A stretch of 64,000 nt of DNA from Bacteroidota bacterium (lineage in GTDB: Bacteria > Bacteroidota > Bacteroidia > Cytophagales > Cyclobacteriaceae): contig JAFDYV010000006.1 in assembly GCA_018267275.1 (NCBI GenBank), positions 1-64,000 of the forward strand. Reading direction: 5' to 3'. Positions 13,124 through 26,784 of the stretch are shown here, piece after piece. Below the pieces are notes generated by a model. That model made no database searches and was not told the DNA's origin. It saw nothing but the letters and a program-made list of their open reading frames with translations. The position numbers and the translations under genes are program-made. Every line of letters begins with the position of its first letter. The stretch's first letter is position 1.

Positions 13124-14251
13124 TTAATTCTTCGTTAAAGTTAAACGAACTCTTCTCGTCCAAGTGCAGTATCCGTTTCTTCTACCATACTCGTCAGCAT
13201 CATCATCCAAACCAATAGTCAAGGTTTGACCCGCTACCAAACCAGTCTGCGATGTATTGTAGGCACCTTGATTTGCCGTTACACCTTGTGGAAGGCCAGC
13301 AGGCAAGGCTGGAGGTGGTGCCGCGGTTGATCCAAATGAACCAGCTGTAGGCATTGTCCAAAACAACTGACGGTCGCTTGTGCAATTTACCGTGGAGTTT
13401 TGTAAAGGAATAAAAATCGTTCCACTGGTAGGAGCTGTCGCGGTGGGCGTTGGCTCAAGGTTAAAACGAATCGTCACATTCTGGCCACGATAATTAACGG
13501 TAAACTGACGCTCCGAAGAAAGTCCACCATTTGGCACTGCCAACGTCACTTGTTGATTCGGAAACAACACCTGATTCAGGTATGAAGGAAATTGCGGTGT
13601 TGCATGCAAGGCTGGCGAGTGATTGAGCGACCAAATTGCACTCTGTGTCAAGTTGTAAGTACCTAGCCACGATCCAGCCAGACTTTGCGATCTAACAGTT
13701 AGCGTATAAATGAAAGATGCGCTATAGAATTGACCACCAGTAATGTTGGGTGTGGTATTGGTGTTGGTGAACTCTCGTCCATCCTTCAAAACCATAACAC
13801 CTCTGTAAATCACTTGATCAGCATTTGCTAACGAACCGGGAAAACCTGTGGCTGTAGCCAACGCAGTGACCGTTTCATTTGCAGAAACCCTTATTCTCGC
13901 CCTCTTGTAGAGAGAAATGGTGGGTTCAGCAACATTTACAAAATCTGACGCAGGTATTACCTTTACCGGAACTTCTGACGACAGCGCTGTTCCCCTTCTG
14001 TGTTGCACTAGTATTCTGAACTCTTGCAAGTTATTTCCGTTGCTACCATCTACTGCTTCAAAAATACCGTCTAAGCCACTGTTTGCTAGATCATTGAGAT
14101 CAATGATGTTAGAAGTAAGGGAGTACAACCGCATGTACGCGCCCACTTCGCGATCATCGTAGGGCAAGGGATAGAGATCCTTGTCTCGACATCCCGTTGT
14201 TACTATCACAATTGAGAATGCGATAAGTGTAAGTCGTTTGTAGAATTTCAT
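13124..14251 (-). CDS. Secreted lipoprotein, third gene of the SusC/SusD operon
   Basis: The start MKFYKRLTLIAFSIVIVTTGC is a lipoprotein signal with cysteine near residue 21, so the protein should be anchored in the outer membrane and probably face outwards, as auxiliary lipoproteins of Sus systems do. The rest is rich in Thr, Ser, Gly and beta-strand patterns, with no catalytic motif that I recognise; a Pro/Ala-rich linker lies near residues 310-330. The ATG at 14251 was chosen because it leads straight into the signal; it lies ten bases after the SusD stop. Its likely job is binding or display of the same substrate as the SusC/SusD pair. Substrate unknown. Confidence 0.75.
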   Translation of the reverse strand: MKFYKRLTLIAFSIVIVTTGCRDKDLYPLPYDDREVGAYMRLYSLTSNIIDLNDLANSGLDGIFEAVDGSNGNNLQEFRILVQHRRGTALSSEVPVKVIPASDFVNVAEPTISLYKRARIRVSANETVTALATATGFPGSLANADQVIYRGVMVLKDGREFTNTNTTPNITGGQFYSASFIYTLTVRSQSLAGSWLGTYNLTQSAIWSLNHSPALHATPQFPSYLNQVLFPNQQVTLAVPNGGLSSERQFTVNYRGQNVTIRFNLEPTPTATAPTSGTIFIPLQNSTVNCTSDRQLFWTMPTAGSFGSTAAPPPALPAGLPQGVTANQGAYNTSQTGLVAGQTLTIGLDDDADEYGRRNGYCTWTRRVRLTLTKN

Positions 14252-14261
14252 ATTGTTATTC

Positions 14262-16373
14262 TTAAAAATCAAGATTCGAATTCATAACATCCCAAAAAAC
14301 CTTACCCGTCAAATTAGCCTTTTGCTCAACTTGAGAGTTACGCGCTTCAAATGAATTGGGATACCAAAAAGTGCGTGGGAAAGCTCCAGGAGAGGGGTTT
14401 ACTGTTGGCTGCATACCTGTTGGTAATCCTGTTCTCCGGTAGAGATTGTAAGCTTCTACCCCACTTCCGAACAGAGATATCCAAGATTCTCGAGCAATTA
14501 TGTTCATACGAGCTTGATCGGATCCTTGTGCAGCGTAGGCCGCATTTGCGCGGGCAATATATCTGCTGATTTCATCTGATAGAGGAGAACGCCAATTGAT
14601 AGCTGTTGCGGCAGGTGTGGTTGTATCAACATTTATAGTACCTGTAGTAATTTGTACGAACCTTGCTGTAATGTTGGCCACACCCTCTTGGACAGTAACT
14701 GTCGCACCCAGAAGTTCGGCCTGCGTGTCTGCGTCTGTAGCACGCGTCCAAGTTCCTGAAGATGCCACGTAAATACCATTCTGGCTTGCTGTAGATTGGT
14801 CTTTCAAAAGTACGCGATCGCCATCGGCCAACGTTACGCCATCAATTGTCAAAAGACCGGCTCTGGTTGCCACGTTTGCTGTAGACGCAACTCGCACGGG
14901 AGTTAGTACAGTTCCCACAGTTGGGAAAAAGGCATTGATTGTTGCTGCTTCATTGGGCGATGCCCCGAAAGCATTAGTCCCAAGCGTTCCATTGATGGAC
15001 CAGTCTCGAACATCATTTATCGAGTTGGTGACTCCCAAGTTAAATTGAGTTGCAGCAGGACCCCCAACGCCCAAGAACAAAGCTGCTTCAGCTCGCATAA
15101 AATTCACCGCAGATCTCATCAATATTGGTTGAATACCAGCACCTCGCATGCCAAGAGCTGGGTTGTTAACACCCGCATTTACATTCGCATCAAATCTGCC
15201 ACCAGATGGATAAGGACCCCATGTGGTTCTTGCTAAGTTATCCGGGGGTATTCCTTGTGGGTCAACGTGTTCACGACCCCAATACCCAACTGGAGTGGGG
15301 AAACAAAATGTCCTCGACCACGCAGGACTTCCCGGATTAGTTGAGATACCGGGAGGAATTCTGTTGGGATCATTAGCCACTGGGCCGTATACTATAGCAG
15401 TTCCGGTAGAAAATGGGTAGTGCGGTGGAGCTGGCTGGACAACGCACCGTATTTCATTCGGATCAGAGGAGTTAGCTCCTCTTTGCCGATAAAAATAAAA
15501 GCGCATTCTTGGATCGGTCATTTCATATCCGTAAAACATCTGCCACATCAAGTAGTTTGCCATGTAATCACCGGCACCCGTAATGTAATTGTTAATGAAT
15601 CTAGGATGTCTTACATCTGGATCAGCTGCATTAGTCGCATAACGGAAGACAAAACTATCTGATTGAGCGCTCATCACCCCAGCAGCATCTGCAAGTGTGT
15701 TCGTAATACCAGTGGTAGCCAACGATGGGTTAACATTTCGCAGATTCAAGTATAGTTTCAATTTAATTGAATTTGCAAGTCTTATCCAACGAGTCACAGC
15801 CGTTGTGCCACTGTAATAAAAATCTGTGATTGCCGGAGCCAAAGAATTAGGGGTAGTTCTTAAATCAACAATTGCCCTATCTAGAATGGCTATTATTGCC
15901 GGATACAGCTGGCTCATATCATCGGGAGCAGGATTGAGGTTTTGCTGTCCACCAAATGCTTGAGAAAACGGCACATTTCCAAAATAGTCTACCAAAACAG
16001 AAAGCGTATAGGCTTGCATTACACGCGCCATCCCTGCGTGCACGGTAAATTGATTCGCATCGGCTTGAGCTATCAAGGCATTGCAATCGGTCAAAATTCC
16101 AGCATAACCGGTGGTCCACAGACCATCGAACGATTGGGGATTTGCAAAATTCTCATAAATCGATCCGCCCGAATTTTGCAGACGAGTAACTTGCATACCA
16201 AATGTACTTGCTGCGTTAAAAAATGCAGCTAAATCTGTTTGTATGTTGTTCAACAACAAGCTTGGTCCTGTTGCTGTAAGCTTTACAGCATTTGGGTCAT
16301 CAAGGAGATCCAATTTGCATGAGGATACCAAAATGATAACCACCGCTAAATAGACTGATCTAAATCGTTTCAT
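14262..16373 (-). CDS. SusD/RagB-family outer-membrane lipoprotein with an inserted phage-tail-like module
   Basis: Surface lipoprotein that caps the SusC channel and binds the substrate. The signal ends in VSSC (C19). Residues about 30-480 and 597-703 follow the SusD fold: a TPR-like helical part, ALIAQADANQF-like segments, FMRAEAALFLG (425-434), and the typical end IIARESWISLFGSGVEAYNLYRRTGLP. Between them, at about residues 492-596 (14586-14900), lies a segment reading VRVASTANV, LLTIDGVTLADGDRVLLKDQ, NGIYVASSGTWTRATDADT and ATVTVQEG. This pattern I know from phage tail-fibre and collar proteins, not from SusD proteins. The total of 703 residues is over 100 longer than usual. The frame is open throughout. 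SusC lies 21 bases upstream. Confidence 0.9.
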   Translation of the reverse strand: MKRFRSVYLAVVIILVSSCKLDLLDDPNAVKLTATGPSLLLNNIQTDLAAFFNAASTFGMQVTRLQNSGGSIYENFANPQSFDGLWTTGYAGILTDCNALIAQADANQFTVHAGMARVMQAYTLSVLVDYFGNVPFSQAFGGQQNLNPAPDDMSQLYPAIIAILDRAIVDLRTTPNSLAPAITDFYYSGTTAVTRWIRLANSIKLKLYLNLRNVNPSLATTGITNTLADAAGVMSAQSDSFVFRYATNAADPDVRHPRFINNYITGAGDYMANYLMWQMFYGYEMTDPRMRFYFYRQRGANSSDPNEIRCVVQPAPPHYPFSTGTAIVYGPVANDPNRIPPGISTNPGSPAWSRTFCFPTPVGYWGREHVDPQGIPPDNLARTTWGPYPSGGRFDANVNAGVNNPALGMRGAGIQPILMRSAVNFMRAEAALFLGVGGPAATQFNLGVTNSINDVRDWSINGTLGTNAFGASPNEAATINAFFPTVGTVLTPVRVASTANVATRAGLLTIDGVTLADGDRVLLKDQSTASQNGIYVASSGTWTRATDADTQAELLGATVTVQEGVANITARFVQITTGTINVDTTTPAATAINWRSPLSDEISRYIARANAAYAAQGSDQARMNIIARESWISLFGSGVEAYNLYRRTGLPTGMQPTVNPSPGAFPRTFWYPNSFEARNSQVEQKANLTGKVFWDVMNSNLDF
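14586..14900 (-). other. Inserted phage-tail-fibre-like module within the SusD gene
   Basis: About 105 codons encode a repeat-like beta domain with the sequence order V-R-V-A-(S/T)-T-A-N, T-I-D-G-V-T-L-A-D-G-D-R-V-L, N-G-I-Y and W-T-R-A-T-D-A-D. Tail-fibre proteins of many phages carry nearly the same words. Here the module sits between the last inner helix region and the C-terminal helical end of a SusD homologue, in frame and without stop codons. Confidence 0.7.
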
Positions 16374-16394: not shown

Positions 16395-19300
16395 TTAGAA
16401 TGTTAGCCTAACAACAAATCCATAGCGCCTTGCACTTGGCCCCGTCAAGTAGTCAAATCCAGCTCCATTGCCAACGCCAGTACTCAGTACTTCTGGGTCA
16501 AAATTTACATTTTTGGGAACGTTGATTGCGTTGAACCATAAGTTGTTACCGTTCAATTGAATTGACGCTGTTTTGAAAGGTGTCTTCGCCATTAGAGACT
16601 TTGGGATATCATACGCAAGAGAAATCTCCCTTAACCTTATTGACGTTCCATCGAAAATAGAAGTATCATCTGTACCATTAAATTGGACATTGAATCCATA
16701 GTCAGCGGCTGTAACTTGTAAGTCGTTTTTCCTATACCCTAGCGAACCATCTGGATTCGTGAACTCGATGACACCAGGCAAAATGAATGTTTGGTCATAC
16801 CCATATTGAACATCTGTTGCCACGACACCGCGGCCAATAGTTGCGGAAGGTGTTGAAGCATACATCGCACCACCTTGACGGTAGTCAAATTGCACGTTTA
16901 AAGAGATGCCTTTGAATGTAAACGTGTTAAATAATGAGGCAGTCCAATCTGGATTTGGGTTGCCAATTTCGCGAATGATAGGGTCTACCGCATAAAGGCC
17001 ATCATTTGCTCGAACTATTCTCTGTCCGTCTGGTGATTTTCTGACTGCATTTCCTTTGATGATATTATAAGGGCGCCCGGGAATTGCAAAGTTCCCGCGA
17101 GTAGTAAAACCAGCTATGAGTACTTCAGACAAGCCCCCACCTAAGTCAATAATTTCTGGGCGTACTATGTTGAAATTCAAAGTTGCATCCCAACGGAACG
17201 CGCCAGCGTTCATGACCTTCCCATTGAGACCCAATTCAATACCTTTATTACTCAATTTACCAACGTTTGTCAACGTGCTAGTGTAGCCTGTTGCTGGATC
17301 TAAGGGAGCTTCCGTAATTAGATTGCTTGTACTTCTATCGTAGAAAGTCAAATCAATTCCAATTCGCTCATTCAAAATCCGGGCCTCCATACCAACTTCT
17401 ATTTCTTGCTGCAACTCAGGTTTTAAATTTCGATTACCCAAAAAATTTCCAATTGAGTTTACAGTGGTTGGCGCACCTGTTAAATCAACATAACCTCTAG
17501 TGTTGAGTAACGCAACTGAGCGGGTTCCGTATGGAAATGGAGCGAAACCAGCTGAGGTTCCATACCCAACTCTAAATTTCAAGTAGTTAAGTGTCGAAGA
17601 CTTCAAATTGGCAAACGCATCGGTGGGTATGAACGACACAGATGCACTAGGGTAAAAGATGTTATTATTGCCAGTTTCTAGAGTTGAAGTCCAATCGTTT
17701 CGCCCAGCAAGATTCAAGAATAGGAATTGCTTGAAGTCAAAAGAAAAATCTCCGTAAACACCCATTCGTTGCTCTTCGGTTTCTCTATTCAAGATACGGC
17801 CGTCAAATCCAATACTGCGAGATGAAGCTGTTGAAAAATTGTAATGCTTGAACAAATTGTCGATCGCTTGCCCCTCTGAATACAAACCGTCACGAACAAA
17901 CCTATCATTCCGTGCATTGAATCCTACTCTCGCAGACATGTTAAAATCTTGATTCAACTGCTTGTTGTAACCAAAGATGACATCTTGATTGAATATGGTA
18001 TTTCGAATATTCTGAGTCTGGTAAACACCATTCAAGATATTTGGCCCTTGTACCCCACCTCTATTGAAGCGTCTTTCTTGTGCCTCGGTATAGGTATCAT
18101 ATCCTACACGGTAAGTAAGGCTCAAATGGTCGGTGATGTCGTACGTTAAGGTAGTTGAATTGAAAACGCGGGTTGTATTATTCAACTCTCTGTAGTTCTG
18201 TGCAAGCCATAATGGGTTGGCAATATCATTACCACCCCGGAAATAAATGCTACGGTTATCCGGTGTAGCACTTGGCCAGTCGAAAATATCGAGATTCCTA
18301 GGTGTGTAAAGGAATTGGCCATAAAGAGATGGGACACCATTGAATGTAGCTCCACCGCCAGTTGCACCGTTTAACGGAGGCGTCTCCACACCGGTTACTG
18401 AGAACAAGATGTTATTAACCAAAGTTAATTTTTTAGTTATCGATGCATTGAGACCGAGACTAATGTTCAAACGATTAACATCATTCCCGGGGACAAATCC
18501 TTGCTCTTTGGTATAAGAAGCCGAAGCATTATACCCAACTCTATCAGTGCCGCCCGTAAAATTGACGTAAGTATTCGATGCAACCCCTTTCCTAAAAAAT
18601 TTGTCGATTGTCTGAGCCGGGTCATATTTAATCCTATTGAACAAGTACTGCGGATACGCATCTCGTAGAGACGGAGAGGCTAAGAATTGATACGGATGTC
18701 CAACTGAATCAACTTCCGAAAAGTCTGGACCCCAGTTGCTGAAAAAAGCTCCATAAAGGCCCTGAAAGCCATTTCCCCAACTACTTTGAAATTTAGGCAG
18801 TGAAGCAACCTCCGTGATTGTTGTTGTTTGTTGCACTGTTACTTCTGCGTTCTTCTTTCCTTTACCAGATTTCGTAGTTACGAGTATAACACCATTCCGC
18901 CCTTGATCACCATACAAAACAGTAGCAGCCAAGCCTTTTAGTACGTTGATTGTTTCAATGTTATTTGGGTCCAGATCCAAAAAGCGGCTTGGAGTAACTG
19001 CCGCTCCGCCAGTAGAAAAGCCAGAGCCGTTATTTGTTGACGAGTTAAACGGAACACCGTCAACAACAAACAGAGGTTGCGTGCTTCCACTCAAAGAACT
19101 ATAGCCTCGAATGTTAATGCTTGAGCCTGAGCCAGAGGTACCTCCTGTTGGAGATATATTAACCCCAGGAACTTTTCCTTGAAGTATTCGAGCTACATCT
19201 TGTTGGGGTCTTGCCGCCAACTGATCAGCACCAACCGAGGAAATTGCATAACCAAGCGCCTTCTTCTCTTTTTGGGCTCCTTGTCCCACGACAATTACTT

Positions 19301-19619
19301 CATTCAACTGCTGAACATCCAAACCCAATGAGACGTCAATTGTCGTTTGGCCACCAATCTCCACTTCTTGGGACTTTAACCCAATAAATGAAAACACAAT
19401 GACCCCTCCTGAAGCAGGCACGGACATCGAGTATTTTCCATCTGCATCAGTTACAGTTCCGTTGGTTGTACCTTTGACAACCACGTTCACTCCAGGCAAG
19501 GACGACCCATCGTCAGCTGATGTGACCCTGCCTGTCAGGGTTCTCTCCTGCGCAAACGCCATACTAGACAGGGCGAATGAGCAGATGATGAAAACCCTTT
19601 TTAGTAGATTTTCTTTCAT
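16395..19619 (-). CDS. SusC/RagA-family TonB-dependent outer-membrane transporter
   Basis: Imports a substrate caught by the neighbouring SusD through a TonB-driven 22-strand barrel. In order: signal peptide (1-23, ending AFA before QERTL), carboxypeptidase-regulatory-like domain (TLTGRVTSADDGSSLPGVNVVVKGT), the LNEVIVVGQGAQKEKKALGYA segment before the plug, the plug (PGVNISPTGGTSGSGSSINIRG, LFVVDGVPF, INVLKGLAATVLYGDQGRNGVILVTTK) and the barrel, closing with a C-terminal aromatic F. Its 1074 residues are full length. It heads the operon SusC-SusD-lipoprotein. No glycoside hydrolase or sulfatase is near, so a peptide or another non-glycan substrate is as likely as a polysaccharide. Confidence 0.96.
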   Translation of the reverse strand: MKENLLKRVFIICSFALSSMAFAQERTLTGRVTSADDGSSLPGVNVVVKGTTNGTVTDADGKYSMSVPASGGVIVFSFIGLKSQEVEIGGQTTIDVSLGLDVQQLNEVIVVGQGAQKEKKALGYAISSVGADQLAARPQQDVARILQGKVPGVNISPTGGTSGSGSSINIRGYSSLSGSTQPLFVVDGVPFNSSTNNGSGFSTGGAAVTPSRFLDLDPNNIETINVLKGLAATVLYGDQGRNGVILVTTKSGKGKKNAEVTVQQTTTITEVASLPKFQSSWGNGFQGLYGAFFSNWGPDFSEVDSVGHPYQFLASPSLRDAYPQYLFNRIKYDPAQTIDKFFRKGVASNTYVNFTGGTDRVGYNASASYTKEQGFVPGNDVNRLNISLGLNASITKKLTLVNNILFSVTGVETPPLNGATGGGATFNGVPSLYGQFLYTPRNLDIFDWPSATPDNRSIYFRGGNDIANPLWLAQNYRELNNTTRVFNSTTLTYDITDHLSLTYRVGYDTYTEAQERRFNRGGVQGPNILNGVYQTQNIRNTIFNQDVIFGYNKQLNQDFNMSARVGFNARNDRFVRDGLYSEGQAIDNLFKHYNFSTASSRSIGFDGRILNRETEEQRMGVYGDFSFDFKQFLFLNLAGRNDWTSTLETGNNNIFYPSASVSFIPTDAFANLKSSTLNYLKFRVGYGTSAGFAPFPYGTRSVALLNTRGYVDLTGAPTTVNSIGNFLGNRNLKPELQQEIEVGMEARILNERIGIDLTFYDRSTSNLITEAPLDPATGYTSTLTNVGKLSNKGIELGLNGKVMNAGAFRWDATLNFNIVRPEIIDLGGGLSEVLIAGFTTRGNFAIPGRPYNIIKGNAVRKSPDGQRIVRANDGLYAVDPIIREIGNPNPDWTASLFNTFTFKGISLNVQFDYRQGGAMYASTPSATIGRGVVATDVQYGYDQTFILPGVIEFTNPDGSLGYRKNDLQVTAADYGFNVQFNGTDDTSIFDGTSIRLREISLAYDIPKSLMAKTPFKTASIQLNGNNLWFNAINVPKNVNFDPEVLSTGVGNGAGFDYLTGPSARRYGFVVRLTF

Positions 19620-24695: not shown

Positions 24696-25105
24696 TAGTG
24701 GCCGATGTAAACACCCTTGCCTATTTCTGGTTTGAATCACCACAAACAGAAGCGGTGAAGGATTTACTGCTGATCGACCGCGAATGGGCAGCCCCCCTCT
24801 TGTGGCGAAGCGAGTTCCGCAGTGTTCTTGCCGGGCAAATGCGCTTGAAAAATCTGTCGCTAACAGACGCAGAAGAAATTTGGGGCGATGCTGAATCACT
24901 CATTGCACCCTATGAACAAATCGTGCCGTCCACCCAAGTTTTGAGTTTGGTAAGCGAAAGCAACTGCTCGGCCTACGATTGCGAATATGTTGCGTTGGCT
25001 AGTCTGTTGGGTGTAAAATTAGTAACCCACGACAAGTTGGTCTTAAAAGAGTTTCCGCAGTTGGCATGTACTGCCGAACAATATCTAAAGTTGATGAGAA
25101 AATGA
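24692..25105 (+). CDS. PIN-domain toxin, VapC/FitB-like ribonuclease
   Basis: A 137-residue PIN domain. Acidic residues for metal binding can be seen in IVADVNTLAYFW (D5), in LLWRSEFRSVL (E41) and in SAYDCEYVALASLLG (D95), with a further D (THDKLVL). VapC toxins of this type usually cut tRNA or rRNA. Unusually, its own stop codon overlaps the start of the next gene, an outer-membrane barrel (ATGA at 25102-25105), so three genes are chained by overlapping stop/start codons. Confidence 0.9.
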   Translation: MIVADVNTLAYFWFESPQTEAVKDLLLIDREWAAPLLWRSEFRSVLAGQMRLKNLSLTDAEEIWGDAESLIAPYEQIVPSTQVLSLVSESNCSAYDCEYVALASLLGVKLVTHDKLVLKEFPQLACTAEQYLKLMRK

Positions 25106-26784
25106 GATACCTGCTTTTTCCGATAACGTTTTTGTCTCTCGGGAGCGTTTTTTCCCAAAGTACCAACGCACCCCTGAACGAAGATTATTATCATTGGCTA
25201 ACCCGTTACGAAATAAAAGCCGGGAGGCTGGCACCCGAATGGTTTACTAGCGTTCGGCCTATGAAGCGCAATGCCCTTGTCGCGTTTGTAGATTCCCTTC
25301 AAACGAAAGATAATGTATTTACTTCGCGGGCAGACCAATTCAATTACGAGTACTTCCGAAATGACAATTGGGAATGGAGCCGCGCAGAAAGTAGTACGAG
25401 CAAAAAACCTTTTCGCAAACTATACCAAAAGAAATCTGACTTTGCCCATGTCGATCAGCCTGACTTTGATTTGCACGTAAGCCCGGTGCTGTATGTAGGC
25501 ATGGCCAAAGACTCTCGCCTTGCCGATTGGGCAACCATTAACACACGCGGGGTAGAAATCAGAGGCATGATTGACAAGAAAATCGGCTTTTACACTTTCC
25601 TCACCGACAATCAAATGGTGCTGCCGAGCTGGGCGCAAGACCAGATGACTTTGTATCCGGTGGTGCCACACGAAGGCTTCTGGAAAAACTTTAAAAACAA
25701 TGGTGTAGATTTTTTTCAGGCACGTGCACACATCGACTTCAACCTGACCAAACACATTTACATGCAATTGGGGCACGATCGCACTTTTATTGGCAACGGC
25801 TATCGGTCGTTGATTTTTTCCGATTATTCACCACCCAACTTTTTTGTGCGCGCTAATGCCAAAGTTTGGAAATTGAATTACTTGTTTCAGCTTAATCGCC
25901 TCACGGGCAATGAGCGCGGAACAATTGGTGGTGGATCTTCAGCAGGAAGACGTTACCCGGAAAAATACATGGCCTTTCATCATGCGAGTGTGAATATTGG
26001 CAAGAAATTTAATCTGGGTTTTTTTGAGTCGATTGTTTTCTCGCCTTCAGATTCGCTAAGCGGTGGCACTTTTGATATGGGATATCTGAACCCCGTAATT
26101 TTTTATCGGGCCATTGAGCAGCAGTTTGGCAGCTCAGACAATGCTTTGCTAGGGCTCGATTTTAAATGGAACGCAGTAAAGGGAATTCAACTCTACGGAC
26201 AGTTTGTGTTGGATGAATTTGTGGCCCGCGAACTTTTGGGTAAGCGAGGTTGGTGGGGAAACAAATATGCATGGCAACTCGGTGCCAAGTGGATTGATGC
26301 GGCCGGAATATCTAATCTTGACGTACAACTAGAAGCCAACCAAGTGCGGCCCTACACTTATTCGCATGAGACACTGAGTAACTATAGCAATTACAGTCAG
26401 GCGCTGGCACATCCTTTGGGTGCAAATTTTACAGAATGGGTGGGCATATTGCGGTACCAACCTTTGCCGAAGCTCAACCTGACAGCAAAAGCATTTTATG
26501 CGCGTATCGGGCGCGATAGTACCAATCAAAATTTTGGCGCTGATTTGTTAAAGAATTACCGCGTGCGCCAAGCGGATTATGGCAATTACATTGGTCAAGG
26601 CTTCAACAACAATGTGCTGTTTGCCGATTTCACCGCCTCTTACATGTTCAAGCACAACTTGTTTATCGATCTGAAATATGTGATCCGCAACAGCAAGAGC
26701 GATTTAGCATTTTACAATAACAACACTTCGTTTGCGTCAATAGCCTTGCGGTGGAATATTGCGCAGCGGACGTACGAGTTTTAA
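25102..26784 (+). CDS. Wzi-like outer-membrane beta-barrel protein (capsule assembly family)
   Basis: A signal peptide (MRYLLFPITFLSLGSVFSQS) is followed by a protein of about 540 residues with alternating aromatic strands to the end (ALRWNIAQRTYEF), typical of an outer-membrane barrel. FIGNGYRSLIFSDYSPPNFF and VEIRGMIDKKIGFYTFLTDNQ recall Bacteroidota proteins annotated as capsule assembly Wzi family. In Wzi itself the barrel holds capsule polysaccharide on the cell surface; here the partner is unknown. The ATG at 25102 was chosen because the signal begins there. It overlaps the toxin stop and is followed after nine bases by the ABC transporter, so export and assembly may be linked. Confidence 0.75.
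   Translation: MRYLLFPITFLSLGSVFSQSTNAPLNEDYYHWLTRYEIKAGRLAPEWFTSVRPMKRNALVAFVDSLQTKDNVFTSRADQFNYEYFRNDNWEWSRAESSTSKKPFRKLYQKKSDFAHVDQPDFDLHVSPVLYVGMAKDSRLADWATINTRGVEIRGMIDKKIGFYTFLTDNQMVLPSWAQDQMTLYPVVPHEGFWKNFKNNGVDFFQARAHIDFNLTKHIYMQLGHDRTFIGNGYRSLIFSDYSPPNFFVRANAKVWKLNYLFQLNRLTGNERGTIGGGSSAGRRYPEKYMAFHHASVNIGKKFNLGFFESIVFSPSDSLSGGTFDMGYLNPVIFYRAIEQQFGSSDNALLGLDFKWNAVKGIQLYGQFVLDEFVARELLGKRGWWGNKYAWQLGAKWIDAAGISNLDVQLEANQVRPYTYSHETLSNYSNYSQALAHPLGANFTEWVGILRYQPLPKLNLTAKAFYARIGRDSTNQNFGADLLKNYRVRQADYGNYIGQGFNNNVLFADFTASYMFKHNLFIDLKYVIRNSKSDLAFYNNNTSFASIALRWNIAQRTYEF

Follow-up and report, generated by a model that had tools for sequence, protein, structure and literature searches.

Introduction

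SusD proteins are established as the lids of TonB-driven importers. They are exposed proteins of the Bacteroidota and help to decide what the importer takes up. The closest described relatives of the protein treated here, P0001, are the SusD/RagB lids of the SusD-like_2 family (PF12771), which it resembles over its entire body, in its lipobox and in the order of SusC and SusD genes; solved relatives of the body include 4puc, 8j0p and 5fq6. A stretch inside P0001 has its likeness elsewhere, in a module of phage tail-fibre and head-decoration proteins (phrog_11518, phrog_2647, phrog_24595; PDB 9nx3), and here the similarity is in sequence across the whole module and in the fold modelled for viral proteins. 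We know of no ligand for this virion module. The SusD copy differs from the PHROG module in its setting, since it sits in a host SusD of a SusCD operon and not in a virion protein. Another parallel is a GH5 endoglucanase with an inserted CBM (PMC9063844), likewise a module within a glycan-handling protein, but there both the inserted domain and the protein that holds it are different, and binding by the SusD module is putative. A literature search of open-licence papers returned no report of a SusD with a phage domain.

Here we describe such a protein in a window of 64,000 nucleotides, by which we mean the whole stretch of DNA that was analysed, and compare it with its orthologues. The carrier host is an uncultured bacterium related to the Cytophagales, and we know of no phages of these hosts.

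The susD gene and its operon

The features discussed below are as follows.

16395..19619, minus strand: susC-like TonB-dependent transporter, upstream in the susD operon (Plug PF07715, E 1.3e-19; CarbopepD_reg_2, E 1.3e-17)
14262..16373, minus strand: susD-like lipoprotein gene (P0001), 703 aa in a single open frame (PF12771 SusD-like_2, E 2.8e-42)
14919..16373, minus strand: SusD N-terminal and central part, residues 1-485, to which orthologues align without the module
14904..14918, minus strand: linker residues 486-490, within the stretch VGTVLTPV, of the VG..xTPV type common to the SusD carriers
14586..14903, minus strand: phage-type virion module, residues 491-596, from a profile match; loop between two SusD helices
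14262..14585, minus strand: SusD C-terminal part and stop, residues 597-703, with the conserved region ARE.WI.LFG.GVEAYNLYRRTG
13124..14251, minus strand: third operon gene, probable surface lipoprotein (VTTGC, seen by eye)

P0001 also matches a second Pfam SusD profile (PF12741, E 1.5e-32), and a lipobox VSSC with Cys19 can be seen by eye, the signal sequence being MKRFRSVYLAVVIILVSSC. Its pairing with the SusC at 16395-19619 is conserved in four relatives. The third operon gene matches no Pfam or NCBIfam family in the window and no Pfam family in the related genome G036, and it is kept beside susD in G036, G076, G009 and G008 whether the module is present or absent.

The genes further upstream, outside the operon, are of a housekeeping kind (RmlD-like, cyclophilin-type PPIase, DNA polymerase III delta subunit family, sugar nucleotidyltransferase), and an ORF of 572 aa at 25066-26784 on the plus strand has no Pfam match at E<=0.01. 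In G009 and G008 a second SusC-SusD pair follows the first one (L331, L334), and in G036 and G076 a further SusC-like gene also comes after the operon.

A phage-type module within SusD

When the whole of P0001 was searched against the PHROG families all ten matches fell on residues 488-624 only, with E values of 2.8e-8 to 2.3e-23, and the families matched are annotated as virion structural, head decoration and tail fibre or are unnamed. The segment alone gave E values of 1e-20 to 1e-24 (phrog_24595, E 1.7e-24). In tblastn the segment matches 92 phage records, and it also matches 18 plasmid records, in which most of the features listed are tail proteins. More than 590 stretches in IMG/VR encode a relative of the module, and a solved capsid decoration protein, PDB 9nx3, matches the segment by sequence (E 8.7e-7). 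Searches of Pfam and NCBIfam gave no family over the module residues. Twenty positions are conserved in at least 85% of the viral modules, and 17 of these are identical in all five complete SusD modules. At the level of sequence comparison, chance is excluded as the source of the match between module and phage proteins. We put the probability that P0001 is a host SusD holding a phage-type virion module at about 97%.

The predicted structure points the same way. An AlphaFold model of the module alone, from an alignment that held 23 viral sequences, has a pLDDT of 86.5 and a pTM of 0.78, and a Foldseek search of this model against predicted viral structures (BFVD) gave 90 matches at E<=1e-3. The best of these predicted structures, D6PHP7, matches with E 1.8e-12, TMq 0.84, an rmsd of 1.4 A and 45% identity, and the named viral matches include tail fibre and capsid decoration proteins. 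The module is therefore predicted to take a fold found in virion proteins. A fold search of the PDB with the same model found no match at E<=0.001, so the likeness to 9nx3 is one of sequence. A full-length model of P0001, built with two SusD rows, has a mean pLDDT of 50.7 and is good over the module and some helices only.

The place of the module on SusD was mapped by alignment to solved SusD homologues and from the description of BT_3984 (PMC2954216). Residues 1-485 probably make up the TPR superhelix through the fourth TPR, and the insertion site would then lie between the fourth TPR and the conserved helices of the C-terminal part. Where phage tail fibres have the upstream linker ATKAYVD...GLDVK, the SusD copy lacks it and has a linker of the SusD type in its place.

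Much of what the first-pass annotation had read from the letters holds. The three sequence words that it quoted are all present in the translation, its span of 14586-14900 is within one codon of the profile match at 14586-14903 (106 aa), and the module lies in frame in an intact gene with normal SusD sequence on both sides. Its view of the segment as phage-type is borne out by matches to PHROG families, phage records and IMG/VR that fall on the module only; the comparison with phage proteins that it proposed yielded the 92 phage records as well as the PHROG matches, and the confident model (pLDDT 86.5) agrees with a domain of its own. The origin it named, tail-fibre and collar proteins, stands in part, for the kinship with tail fibres is clear but extends also to capsid decoration proteins (phrog_2647, phrog_24595, PDB 9nx3). 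The roles it suggested, in binding a ligand, blocking phage adsorption or mimicking a receptor, stay putative, as does a place for the module away from SusC.

Distribution among genomes

A scan of the genus (63 genomes) gave five module matches at E<=0.001, all in the orthologous SusD. We refer to the copies in the window, G036 and G076 as group A and to those in G009 and G072 as group B. A sixth carrier is the locus L010 from G014, where the contig (G014:C16) ends inside the module. Six congeneric species carry the module, one copy being cut by the contig end, and it occupies the same SusD site in every case. L010 keeps about 30 residues of the module before its SusD ORF reaches the edge of the contig, and its linker, FYSLNY-LGG, resembles that of group B.

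Wider scans gave matches in five genomes of the order besides the genus carriers (390 genomes scanned) and in four other genomes of the phylum (395 genomes). Seven of these loci (L044, L045, L047, L049, L050, L131 and L135) look like tail-fibre genes, judged by repeats or by an ATKxYVD...GL..K type of linker, and two more that were read (L046, L048) do not look like SusD. None of these nine loci is a SusD, and most of them appear to be tail-fibre-like. Three further loci from other Bacteroidota, L132, L133 and L134, have stretches resembling the module within open frames of 648, 428 and 402 aa, the matches of L133 and L134 being weak (E about 1e-8). A further contig scan with the module gave three loci, namely the SusD of G036, a tail-fibre-like ORF (L041) and L042, whose translation looked like a different protein.

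To compare SusD proteins with and without the module we used 30 proteins, 23 of which form the ingroup. P0001 differs from the SusD-like_2 lids in having a foreign 106-residue domain that the compared family orthologues are without; in 17 of the 23 ingroup orthologues the module is absent and the flanks are joined, mostly as FYPA(A/T)(T/N)Y..DV. The closest pair that differs in the module is G009, which has it, and G008, which does not; their SusD bodies are 82% identical and their gene order is alike (SusC-SusD-LP3-SusC-SusD). The insertion that the first-pass annotation described in this SusD is no one-off, as six species of the genus carry it. Most close homologues lack the segment, and the case that the annotation had set against itself, a segment common to close homologues and matching no phage protein, is contradicted on both counts.

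The loop around the site varies in length and sequence among relatives (for example G934, G906 and G032), and in sliding identity along SusD the sequence next to the module ranks with the least conserved parts of the gene in several pairs, whether or not they are carriers. We considered reading recombination tracts from these sliding identities and rejected this, as the flanks vary in control pairs too.

Origin and maintenance of the module

In a tree of the SusD body, with the module columns left out, the presence of the module needs three changes. These are forced by well-supported branches, and bootstrap trees with one change amount to 0%. Counted on the same tree, a single gain followed by pure descent needs about nine losses. 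The three changes make a poor fit with one simple gain and vertical descent.

Module trees group the copies of A and B at 99/83 with 134 other rows, almost all of them viral, and at 92/88 and 93/90 with fewer rows. The SusD copies have the linker [VL]G[TG]..TPV, which occurs in none of 268 viral and prophage-like modules, while 193 of the 268 have the tail-fibre linker GLxxK. The residues R81, Q84 and T87 are common to the SusD copies and each is rare in viral modules (4-8%). Identity between A and B is much the same over the module (55%) as over the body (54%), and between the groups the module is no closer than it is to the best viral modules (about 60%). The trees rest on 97 columns, however, and a placement of the A or B modules among viral rows is not rejected in AU tests (p 0.10-0.33); with the 30-residue fragment of G014 added there is no firm grouping (AU p 0.234).

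As regards maintenance, the group A module has a pN of 0.11-0.13, equal to or below that of the body, with pS saturated at 0.76-0.81, and the group B module has a dN/dS of 0.083. The GC content of the module is near that of the body and is uninformative. The substitution values point to strong purifying selection and, taken with the preserved core residues, show that the domain is maintained. The selection and the open frame also uphold the earlier suggestion of retention rather than decay.

Discussion

As six related species carry the module and most of their close kin are without it, a piece of a virus would seem to have been taken up and retained at the cell surface. It would have passed once from a phage-type gene into an ancestral susD, and in a SusCD outer-membrane importer the SusD lid would thereby have gained a virion domain, placed between two C-terminal helices in a loop that varies and tolerates indels. 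Loss of the module, or its exchange between susD alleles by recombination, would have followed. We consider this sequence of events, one capture and then loss or exchange, the reasonably probable one, and prefer it because the linker, the rare residues and the grouping in module trees are common to A and B.

It is unlikely, though it keeps some weight given the few columns and the AU values, that phage modules entered the same SusD loop independently two or three times. The three changes forced on well-supported branches, with 0% of bootstrap trees showing one, speak for such repeated entry, as do AU tests that allow A or B among viral modules and a truncated G014 copy whose grouping is not firm. 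It would have to explain why the copies share a linker absent from all 268 viral modules as well as rare residues, why the linker found in 193 of those modules was left behind, and why A and B fall together in three trees. Less probable still is a phage-derived surface cassette that passes from one susD allele to another, whether by repeated gain at a single fixed site or by recombination, and that has an effect on phage adsorption or on binding at the surface. An assembly chimera or a misread frame has almost no probability; several genomes of the genus are drafts in many contigs, but an identical junction recurs in three genomes at 76-79% identity and a second form in two more, with all frames open. 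This repeated junction refutes a chimera for the main carriers, and only the G014 copy meets a contig edge.

The module would form an additional beta domain, exposed at the surface of the lid and outside the SusD core fold. The simplest role, because an intact beta domain sits in an indel-tolerant loop, would be an added contact surface for the importer, for binding a glycan, a particle or a protein, and to such a surface on the SusCD lid we give about even odds. The same loop might instead be a tolerated spacer that accepts many inserts, the module being kept as its loss is slow and misfolding costly. The differing loop lengths and sequences among relatives such as G934, G906 and G032, and the low conservation of the flanking stretch in several pairs, are in keeping with this, but the preserved core of the domain and a group A module pN no higher than that of the body are not, and its precise absence from many relatives suggests that a loop without the module is readily attained or retained. 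We regard a mere spacer as rather improbable.

Of similarly low probability is a shield or decoy, in which the module covers or alters the face of SusCD that phages use, or imitates some part of the virion; its patchy gain and loss would then, at equally long odds, track phage pressure. The phage origin of the module and its scattered occurrence, for which the SusD tree forces three changes, accord with such a role, and so does the phase variation of TonB-dependent transporter and RagB/SusD-like loci reported for a Bacteroides strain studied with the crAss-like phage crAss001 (PMC8375218). TonB-dependent receptors have also been implicated in the switching of phage susceptibility, in work which that paper cites (PMC8375218). 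This phase variation gives the shield reading enough to merit a test and no more. The module is common to species that have diverged to about 54% SusD identity and is under purifying rather than diversifying selection, unlike a fast-changing shield.

What the locus offers is a virion domain in a SusD lid, long kept and yet present or absent among close species. This is a clean natural experiment, because G009, with the module, and G008, without it, match in operon order and share 82% SusD identity. It makes the reuse of phage structural domains by their hosts, as binding or shielding parts of the cell surface, a testable idea.
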